This document shows, piece after piece, positions 20,460-22,665 of a stretch of DNA of 64,000 nt. Within the stretch, counting starts at the first letter, position 1; every line of letters starts with the position of its first letter. Under the pieces are notes generated by a model. It was not told the origin of the DNA, made no database searches, and was given only the letters and a program-made list of their open reading frames with translations. The position numbers and the translations under genes are program-made. This stretch comes from Romboutsia hominis (GTDB lineage: Bacteria > Bacillota > Clostridia > Peptostreptococcales > Peptostreptococcaceae), in contig NZ_LN650648.1 in NCBI RefSeq assembly GCF_900002575.1, positions 1,364,001 to 1,428,000 on the forward strand. Direction: 5' to 3'.

Positions 20460-20493
20460 AAAATAAGAGGTGATATCACCTCTTATTTTTTTT
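20458..20493. terminator. Palindromic bidirectional terminator
   Basis: AAAATAAGAGGTGATATCACCTCTTATTTT is a near-perfect palindrome followed by T on the plus side and preceded by A. It overlaps the final codons of convergent trmB. Confidence 0.88.
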
Positions 20494-21120
20494 AGCTTCA
20501 CATCTAAATATTTTCATTCCATAAGACATAAATTTATCTTCATATTCTGTTGTTACATTTTCAAATTCACTATTTGCTAAGTCTAGAGATATATTTTTTA
20601 ATTTCCAGTTGTTATCAGTGATTTCATTTAAACTAAATTCAAATAAATTTTCATTATCAGTTTTAAAATGTATCTCACCATCAGCATTTAAAATTTCATT
20701 ATACATATTTAAAAAGTTTTTATGTGTTAGTCTTCTCTTTGCCCATCTTTTCTTTGGCCAAGGGTCACAGAAATTTATATAAATTCTAGATAGTTCTTCT
20801 TTTTCAAAATAATCTAATATATTAGCTACATTTGCCCATGCAAACAAAATATTATCTAAGTTATTTTCTATAGCCTTTTCCACAGCCTTTAATAGAACTT
20901 CTTCTTTTATTTCAAAAGCTATGTAGTTTATATTAGGGTTTTCTTTAGCTAAAGTGGTTAAGAATTTTCCTCTACCTGTACCAAATTCTACATGTATAGG
21001 ATTATTATTTTCGAATCTTTTATTCCATTTTCCTTTAAATTGTTCTATGTTATCTTTTAGTACATAATTTTCATGGCTTAATAATTTTATATCTGCACCC
21101 TTTACTTTTCTTCTTCTCAT
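20476..21120 (-). CDS. trmB: tRNA (guanine-N7-)-methyltransferase
   Basis: Adds the N7 methyl to G46 of tRNAs with SAM. Motifs: VEFGTGRGKFL (SAM site, residues 45-55), NYIAFEIKEEVL, the family hallmark FCDPWPKKRWAKRRLT and a C-terminal TEYEDKFMSYGMKIFRCEA. 214 aa, normal. ATG follows AAGGAG. Its 3' end is used by the palindromic terminator. Confidence 0.95.
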   Translation of the reverse strand: MRRRKVKGADIKLLSHENYVLKDNIEQFKGKWNKRFENNNPIHVEFGTGRGKFLTTLAKENPNINYIAFEIKEEVLLKAVEKAIENNLDNILFAWANVANILDYFEKEELSRIYINFCDPWPKKRWAKRRLTHKNFLNMYNEILNADGEIHFKTDNENLFEFSLNEITDNNWKLKNISLDLANSEFENVTTEYEDKFMSYGMKIFRCEAKKNKR

Positions 21121-21174: not shown

Positions 21175-21213
21175 AAAAAATAAAGAGTATTAGCATTTGC
21201 TAATACTCTTTTT
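21175..21213 (-). terminator. Terminator after the selenoprotein gene
   Basis: AAAGAGTATTAGCA and TGCTAATACTCTTT pair, followed on the minus strand by ATTTTTTA; it begins six bases past the stop codon of the selenoprotein. Confidence 0.88.
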
Positions 21214-21218
21214 AGATA

Positions 21219-21539
21219 TTAATGTCCGCAACCAGAGCATCCTCCACCGCATCCATTATCATCTTTCATATTTTCAGGTATAACTTTGAAACCGTATCCT
21301 GTATCTTCTATAACTATATCTCCATACTTAGTATAGTCATCTTTACTCATTATAAAATGTAATCCATCTACATCGTATTGTAAATCGTCAGCCTTTTGCT
21401 CATCCAGAGCAATTCCAAATGATGGACCACCTCAGCCTATACCTGCAAAGTATACTCTTATATTATGAGGTCTGTCTTGATTATCTTTTAATATGTCTTT
21501 TAGCGTATCTACCGCTGTTTGTGGTAAAGTAACCTTCAT
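21219..21539 (-). CDS. HesB/IscA-like selenoprotein with in-frame UGA (Sec36)
   Basis: A 106-aa frame from ATG (AAAGGA ribosome binding site) to TAA with a single internal TGA (21434-21432, codon 36). The context VYFAGIG-U-GGPSFGIALDE matches the HesB-like selenoprotein family (TIGR01911; IscA/HesB relatives where Sec replaces the first conserved Cys). The C-terminus has the second cluster of thiols, CGGGCSGCGH. Coding continues with full similarity past the TGA, and a SECIS-like hairpin follows at the right distance. HesB/IscA proteins carry or deliver Fe-S clusters; a redox or cluster role here is inference. selA, selB, selC and selD must be elsewhere in the genome. Ordinary ORF calling would miss or truncate this gene. 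Confidence 0.92.
21396..21412 (-). promoter_or_regulatory. Candidate bacterial SECIS hairpin
   Basis: Minus strand: TTGCTC-TGGAT-GAGCAA, a 6-bp perfect stem with a 5-base loop whose second base is G. The loop begins 25 bases after the UGA. Known bacterial SECIS elements have a small apical loop with G in its first two positions about 16-37 bases downstream, so this fits. Confidence 0.75.
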
Positions 21540-21804
21540 ATAATCATTTCCTTTCAATTATTAAATTTATATATATTATATACTTTTATTGTGTATATAA
21601 TCAATTAAATTTTACAAAATATACTAGAAATTAATAAAAATATATCATTTAAATTATATAAATTTATTTATATTATACCCTTTGATATCAATAATAAACG
21701 AAATTTATTTTACTATATAATTATTATACTTTATATACTATGTATTTACTGTTATAATATATAAATGTGATAAAATTTGACAATTTAATATAATGGGGGT
21801 AAAA

Positions 21805-22665
21805 ATGAAAAAGGAAAATTCTAAGTTACTTGTAGAAGCTTTTGGATTAATATTAGGGTGTATATCTATGAGTATAGGTATTAATATGTTCTTAAAGCCA
21901 CACACAATAGCACCTGGAGGACTTAGCGGCCTTTCTGTAGTATTAAGTAAGGTTACGGGCATGTCAGTATCTTTTATAATGTTAGCTATAGGTGTTCCTC
22001 TAGTTATATTTTCATTTAAAATACTTGGAGGAAAAAATTCTATAAAAACCTTAATAGGTACAGTTATGTTTTCTATTATAGTAAATTTAATGGCTCCAAT
22101 TTCTGACCTAATTGTGACAAATGATTTATTATTATCAGCTATATCAGGTGCTATACTACTAGGTATAGGTATAGGTATAATGTTTAGAGCAGATGCTTCT
22201 ACTGGTGGTACTGATTTAATTGCACTTATACTTAGCAAAAGGTTTAAAGGTATTAAGCCTACACAATTTATGGTATGTTTAGATGCTTTTGTAGTTATAT
22301 CTTCAGGAATTGCTAGTAAAAATATTGAAATTTCTCTTTATTCTGCTATAGCACTCTATACAATGGTCAAGGTAGCAGATGCAATAATGGAAGGATTTGA
22401 TTACTCTAAAGCTTTCCTTATAATATCTAAAGAAGCGGAGAGCTTAAAAGAAGTTATAACTAATGATTTATCTAGAGGTGTTACTATATTAAATGGTAGA
22501 GGTGGATATACTGATGATAAAAAAGAAGTACTTTTAGTAGTGGTTCCTAGAAATCAAGAAGTTCACTTAAAAAGATTGGTTAAATTGAAAGATCCCAATG
22601 CATTTATAATAGTTAGTAATGTTCATGAGGTATTAGGAGAAGGATTTAAAGTTTTAGAAAGTTAA
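21805..22665 (+). CDS. YitT family membrane protein (DUF161/DUF2179)
   Basis: 286 aa. Five to six TM helices (first at about 7-28, last ending near 195), followed by a soluble C-terminal DUF2179 domain of about 85 residues (RGVTILNGRGGYTDDKKEVL, VVVPRNQEVHLKRLV). MFRADASTGGTDLIALIL is the conserved family core. Substrate unknown; some relatives are studied as amino acid or ion transporters. An ATG at 21793 lies in frame, but GGGGG at 21795-21799 places the start at 21805. Ends at a terminator. Confidence 0.85.
   Translation: MKKENSKLLVEAFGLILGCISMSIGINMFLKPHTIAPGGLSGLSVVLSKVTGMSVSFIMLAIGVPLVIFSFKILGGKNSIKTLIGTVMFSIIVNLMAPISDLIVTNDLLLSAISGAILLGIGIGIMFRADASTGGTDLIALILSKRFKGIKPTQFMVCLDAFVVISSGIASKNIEISLYSAIALYTMVKVADAIMEGFDYSKAFLIISKEAESLKEVITNDLSRGVTILNGRGGYTDDKKEVLLVVVPRNQEVHLKRLVKLKDPNAFIIVSNVHEVLGEGFKVLES

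Follow-up and report, generated by a model that had tools for sequence, protein, structure and literature searches.

A HesB/IscA-like gene of Romboutsia hominis with a predicted selenocysteine at the first ligand position of A-type carriers

HesB-like proteins have long been counted among the prokaryotic selenoproteins. The available portions of a 2006 survey record 11 members and two Sec-to-Cys events, describe Cys homologues that carry remnant SECIS-like structures, and list Clostridium difficile without a HesB-like selenoprotein (PMC1794560), an entry with which the Cys forms L098–L101 of the present analysis agree. A 2026 review, as far as its accessible text goes, lists the HesB-like family under TIGR01911 with the motif UxGP and calls the functions of most selenoproteins not clear (PMC13188914). 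In Methanococcus maripaludis, according to the extracts at hand, a HesB-like selenoprotein was found by mutagenesis and 75Se labelling, its function being given as not clear; disrupting the gene left the mutant able to fix nitrogen (PMC11097638). The titles and abstract openings returned by a literature search contain nothing on the HesB-like clade treated below. The kind of protein is already known; what is added here is the clade itself, the failure of the curated models to cover it, and the Sec/Cys pairs within it.

The gene under study lies on the minus strand of the window (the 64,000-nucleotide stretch of the R. hominis chromosome that was analysed), running from 21539 to 21219, the coordinates at which a sequence-only reading had correctly placed it while leaving the strand unstated. 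Re-translation agrees with that reading in giving one HesB/IscA-like frame of 106 codons plus a stop, broken by TGA alone, at codon 36 (21432–21434, minus strand) in the context GIG-U-GGPSFG. With TGA read as Sec, the translation is MKVTLPQTAVDTLKDILKDNQDRPHNIRVYFAGIGUGGPSFGIALDEQKADDLQYDVDGLHFIMSKDDYTKYGDIVIEDTGYGFKVIPENMKDDNGCGGGCSGCGH, closing with a Cys-rich tail, CGGGCSGCGH (residues 97–106; codons 21222–21251, minus strand), whose cysteines are conserved. The gene stands alone, with its own signals on either side: a ribosome-binding-like AAAGGA (21549–21554, minus strand) 9 nt 5' of the ATG, a promoter-like site TTGATT-18-TATAAT (21575–21604, minus strand) found by motif scan and matched by similar sequence 5' of orthologues, and, 3' of the frame, a terminator-like hairpin of 13 pairs followed by a T-run (21182–21211, minus strand; motif scan). 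Because the region holds 12 promoter-like sites against a shuffle mean of 6.8, the promoter-like site is weak taken alone; terminator-like sites number 2 in the region, both strands counted, against a shuffle mean of 0.1. The gene has no entry in the table 11 list of ORFs of at least 60 aa, so the statement that an ordinary ORF caller loses it is true at that length.

Overlapping the promoter-like site is a perfect 9-bp inverted repeat, ATTATATAC-N9-GTATATAAT (21575–21601, unstranded), operator-like in form. The genome contains it at a single site, which reads on both strands; with few changes it lies 5' of many Sec and Cys orthologues in Romboutsia, Clostridioides and Paraclostridium; the upstream regions of the Peptostreptococcus orthologues are without it.

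Whether a cell could read such a UGA as selenocysteine depends on its machinery, and on this point the genome, a single contig of 3.04 Mb with a computed completeness of 99.92%, is unambiguous. The sequence-only reading had staked itself on the presence of selA, selB and selC, and all are found, together with selD, in one cluster: selA over cut-off in the genome profile search, selB over cut-off at 369 bits, a tRNA-Sec with anticodon TCA and, adjoining these, selD at 402.5 bits (cut-off 125). The selD gene itself has one in-frame TGA, in TSGGUAAKIG, which we take to be the usual SelD Sec site, and fdhA, also over cut-off, has one in LUHSSTVAG, presumably the usual Sec site there, followed by a hairpin, TTGCAGGTCTTGCAA. 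Searches for GrdB and PrdB gave no match in this genome, but none in the control genomes either. Across the family, selA is over cut-off in 67 of 71 genomes. The three without a selA match (G013, G064, G082) have only the Cys form of the HesB-like protein, while in G067, whose genome is 83% complete, selA is matched in part and the protein is present in a Sec form.

The residue at position 36 was counted among relatives gathered from 71 genomes of the family, 64 of which gave HesB-like matches and seven none, and from a contig scan that added 80 named loci (the best 80 of 90), mostly from Peptostreptococcaceae and other Clostridia/Tissierellia. The count used loci L023–L172 with no motif filter and with query position 36 masked; after 52 duplicate rows were dropped from 166, there remained 114 distinct sequences covering the position, and the widened searches took in CC-type and second-subgroup genes that narrower motif patterns had missed. 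Position 36 is TGA in 71 of these, Cys in 42 and Ala in one. Every stop is TGA, none TAA or TAG, and each is the sole stop of its alignment; recurrence at this codon in 71 of 114 distinct relatives is more than chance would give. Within the window clade, defined by 55% identity or more, TGA appears in nine genus groups (g1, g2, g8, g9, g12, g13, g18, g32 and g33). The earlier placement of Sec exactly as in HesB-like selenoproteins is borne out by this spread and by the presence of Cys in all but one of the 43 non-TGA relatives (distinct sequences): an in-frame UGA stands where homologues carry Cys, the pattern looked for in a selenoprotein gene. The one Ala belongs to a further tandem copy at L058:3023-3337, beside a Sec copy.

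The R. hominis genome carries two further HesB-like copies that appear damaged, and one could suppose that the present TGA is likewise a nonsense mutation, or a sequencing error, in an IscA-like gene. Such a pseudogene is, in our estimation, very improbable: the same TGA recurs in the relatives just counted, never replaced by another stop; a hairpin tracks it, as described below; and the sequence beyond it is constrained. Against seven Sec orthologues, dN/dS (NG86) 3' of the TGA is 0.10–0.33, values that are rough because several dS are high, and by these ratios the codons after TGA are under purifying selection. The same comparisons bear on the idea that TGA is read without a SECIS as some other amino acid, Trp for example, or Cys by suppression. 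Non-TGA homologues have Cys (42) or Ala (1) and never Trp, the Sec machinery is complete and the hairpin is conserved; nothing in the analysis spoke in favour of this decoding, which is more improbable still.

The TGA is followed, after 19 nt, by a hairpin (21396–21412, minus strand) with the stem strands TTGCTC (21412–21407) and GAGCAA (21401–21396) closing a TGGAT loop (21406–21402). Stem and loop are as the sequence-only reading had them; its spacing of 25 nt is in fact the distance from TGA to loop, the stem starting 19 nt after the TGA. The folding energy of the hairpin region is not unusual (z -0.05; 81 of 200 shuffles fold equally well), and it is the comparison of Sec with Cys homologues, not folding energy, that upholds the claim of a SECIS element; energy alone being ordinary, the support is comparative. 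Counted over distinct 45-nt stretches (65 from 69 Sec rows, 41 from 46 Cys rows), a hairpin with four apical pairs and a TGGA loop is found in 62 of 65 Sec genes versus none of 41 Cys genes. It is found, too, in Sec genes L149 and L172, from records titled Desulfobacteraceae and Proteobacteria. The three exceptions are Sec genes of the Peptacetobacter group (L061, L108, L116), where the local sequence differs. These same copies are placed among Cys copies on the tree, possibly by a Cys-to-Sec gain or by gene conversion. A silent-site choice follows the same division, the Leu45 codon being CTG in 58 of the 65 Sec genes versus one of the 41 Cys genes.

Base pairing in this region was further examined over 56 Sec sequences, a set that leaves out the damaged copy L021 (part of an earlier set of 57) and the Sec genes from the later widened search. 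Paired cells amount to 92.3% against 85.7% in shuffles, and the covariation score to 0.203 against 0.113, neither value being equalled in 500 shuffles. The pair at columns 24/38, which joins the third position of codon 43 (Ile/Leu) to the second position of codon 48, is UA in 25 sequences, AU in 11, GC in six and GU in four, and is unpaired in 10. Two of the five covariation measures stay within the shuffle range (pairs changed on both sides, 60 of 500 shuffles as high; further pair types, 380 of 500), and in 33 Cys stretches, fewer than the 41 of the hairpin count, none of the same measures rises above shuffles. On comparative grounds the hairpin shows compensatory change, although related sequences are not independent in any of these hairpin and covariation statistics. 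When hairpin is set against Sec/Cys on well-supported branches, there are five independent contrasts, of which three agree, none opposes and two show no difference; with just five, significance is out of reach. An earlier protein tree gave three independent pairs, two of them in agreement. By comparison, then, a hairpin stands soon after the UGA with a G in its apical loop, as looked for in a SECIS element.

With Sec machinery in the genome, TGA recurrent at the codon, and a hairpin that tracks the TGA with compensatory change, UGA36 is almost certainly decoded as selenocysteine; on TGA recurrence, hairpin, selection and Sec machinery we reject a pseudogene, another decoding of the TGA and a chance ORF alike. 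The cell's SelB and tRNA-Sec would read UGA36 as Sec under the direction of the hairpin 19 nt downstream, SelB docking the Sec-tRNA on that hairpin so that full-length protein forms.

The surroundings of the gene show how Sec and Cys have been exchanged. Downstream on the same strand lies trmB (20476–21120) and, upstream and divergent, a gene for a YitT-family membrane protein (21793–22665), both with profiles over cut-off. The order YitT, hesB-like, trmB is common to Sec and Cys species (e.g. L095, L105), which argues for Sec/Cys exchange at one locus; a trmB-type family is present at 26 of the 55 loci examined (the window and L093–L146). On a DNA tree of 62 rows with the trait codons removed, the Sec/Cys character needs seven changes, five of them forced by supported branches. 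Within Paraclostridium, L109 is Cys and L110 is Sec. Tandem Sec/Cys pairs, 85–378 bp apart, occur at seven loci in three genus groups. The clade thereby offers a clean test bed, with a hesB-like gene before trmB carrying Sec or Cys in close relatives, plus tandem pairs, so that one could measure directly what is gained by having selenium at a ligand position of IscA.

Further HesB-like copies lie elsewhere in the R. hominis genome. At C1:1715033-1715272 (L021:9020-9360, plus strand) there is a second HesB-like Sec gene, with IAUHGPIFDLALDE, a TGGAT hairpin loop and an extra TAA. In its relatives L078, L079 and L083 the frame is open apart from one TGA and ends in a tail, EYHYSxWxKPW, that is without the Cys cluster; by their sequences they are a HesB-like Sec subgroup lacking the tail cysteine cluster. 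A Cys paralogue, GFGCSGAIFNLALDE, lies at C1:1652867-1653133 (L022:8865-9190, minus strand), its frame broken near an A run. At L020:13580-14529 a thioredoxin gene (PF00085) is followed by a short pyridine-nucleotide-disulfide-oxidoreductase-like ORF, which resembles what is left of a disrupted gene for thioredoxin reductase.

As to family, the best-scoring curated model is NF038090 (IscA_HesB_Se), at 59.8 bits over residues 4–99 against a cut-off of 85, followed by TIGR01911 (HesB_rel_seleno) at 47.4 bits against 66.35; PF01521 scores 20.2 bits, below its gathering cut-off of 26.3. The expected likeness to TIGR01911 members therefore holds in part: the protein is HesB-like and has the UxGP motif, as UGGP, and by its score it is no member of TIGR01911. 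Membership of either curated model is accordingly not adopted. The shortfall is shared. Nine of ten relatives scanned, among them the window-clade members L093, L098, L106, L119 and L122, fall below both NCBIfam cut-offs; those five score 49.9–64.0 bits with NF038090, and L067 is the sole relative of the ten over the TIGR01911 cut-off (73.4). Selenoprotein genes can thus score short of the threshold in each of the two curated models.

The AlphaFold2 model (mean pLDDT 84.6; tail residues 94–106 under 50) finds its best PDB matches by Foldseek in 2apn (HI1723), IscA (1s98 and 1r94), SufA (2d2a) and IscA with [2Fe-2S] (1x0g), and VIA superposes it on IscA 1s98 with Z 11.7 and an rmsd of 2.6 over 92 aligned residues. 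As modelled, the HesB-like selenoprotein has an A-type carrier (IscA) fold. The ligand positions of IscA are Cys35, Cys99 and Cys101. By phmmer, residue 36 aligns with Cys35 of E. coli IscA, so that the first ligand position is Sec36 by alignment; the tail cysteines are conserved but modelled at low confidence. The explanation as a whole, a Sec-containing HesB/IscA-like protein whose likeliest role would be that of an Fe or Fe-S carrier, seems to us highly likely. With moderate confidence, from sequence and model, we would call it an A-type Fe-S carrier-like protein in which Sec replaces the first ligand cysteine and which binds and passes on iron or an Fe-S cluster. Sec36 and the tail cysteines, in the place of the other two IscA ligands, would bind the iron or cluster, a selenolate standing in for one thiolate, and the protein would hand its cargo on, working beside a system of the NifS/IscS-NifU/IscU type.

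Such a system is encoded in the genome by an operon in which mnmA is joined by genes for an Rrf2-family regulator, a cysteine desulfurase of the NifS/IscS type and a scaffold of the NifU/IscU type. The regulator is over the Rrf2 cut-off and below those for IscR (140.9 of 207.55) and CymR (150 of 195), and its identification as IscR was dropped on that score. Because of these sub-cut-off scores, and because desulfurase and scaffold prefer the NifS (TIGR03402) and NifU_clost (TIGR03419) models over IscS (TIGR02006) and IscU, we keep neutral names for the operon proteins. The SUF core (SUFBD) has no match in the genome, all 14 controls being positive. A genome search with PF01521 gave nothing over cut-off and one weak match (E 0.035, at C1:815345); it missed the window gene itself and so is not exhaustive. 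A carrier role would suit this setting of operon, no SUFBD match and no PF01521 match over cut-off. No Fe-S assembly gene adjoins the HesB-like gene among the window neighbours examined, and ATTATATAC-N9-GTATATAAT, sought as a sign of co-regulation, does not precede the Fe-S assembly operon, where other repeats lie. The gene's position away from that operon, the lack of a shared upstream motif, the tail pLDDT under 50 and the lack of a match in seven of 71 family genomes all count against a carrier role, and from the subgroup without the tail cysteine cluster it follows that a three-ligand site is not general.

The main rival of the carrier role is a redox one, in which the protein is a thiol/selenol redox enzyme or a peroxide/thiol reductant, Sec36 attacking and a tail Cys resolving with no cluster involved. 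The tail cysteines could indeed resolve a selenenyl-sulfide, and in three Cys forms (L109, L113, L114) the Cys at the active position is directly followed by another (C-C-G-P), as though an extra thiol compensated. The accessible text of the 2026 review, moreover, holds most uncharacterised prokaryotic selenoproteins to be likely redox proteins (PMC13188914). Given the fold and alignment of A-type carriers and the lack of a UxxC or CxxU motif at Sec36 (U-G-G-P), we nonetheless think the redox reading somewhat unlikely. The Cys-rich tail that the sequence-only reading took to suggest metal or redox chemistry does fit either, to judge by its sequence, and metal binding or detoxification by the selenolate (of mercury, arsenic, copper or selenium itself, for example), outside Fe-S traffic, has to be weighed as well. 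It can draw on that tail, which alone gives a sub-cut-off match to PF12669 (FeoB_associated, E 0.058), and on the review's available text, which for other families names Sec as a potential ligand of metals (PMC13188914). The seven window ORFs checked near the gene (TrmB, YitT, leucine-rich-repeat, GNAT acetyltransferase, biotin carrier and two without a Pfam match), however, include no known metal-resistance family, and we regard the metal-binding reading as quite improbable. Returning to the carrier role, a more far-reaching version, speculative and on balance doubtful, would make the Sec protein the genome's only intact A-type-carrier-like protein, taking a selenolate-ligated cluster to the targets of a minimal NifS/IscS-NifU/IscU system, while sister species swapped Sec for Cys at this very locus or keep a tandem Sec/Cys pair, which may work as a mixed carrier or as a switch that depends on selenium.

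Among the known systems, M. maripaludis has a HesB-like protein of the same selenoprotein kind by name, archaeal, and likened here by its description in the available text (PMC11097638). The HesB-like selenoproteins of TIGR01911, like the window protein, have Sec at the conserved Cys of HesB/IscA, the UxGP motif, Cys homologues and a downstream SECIS-like hairpin; the window protein differs in its CGGGCSGC tail and in scoring, with five other clade members, 44.4–56.9 bits against the cut-off of 66.35. With the A-type Fe-S carriers IscA, SufA and ErpA it would have in common the modelled fold, Sec36 opposite Cys35 of IscA, and Cys near the C-terminus, whereas it is set apart from them by Sec in place of the first Cys and by a gene that does not lie beside Fe-S assembly genes.
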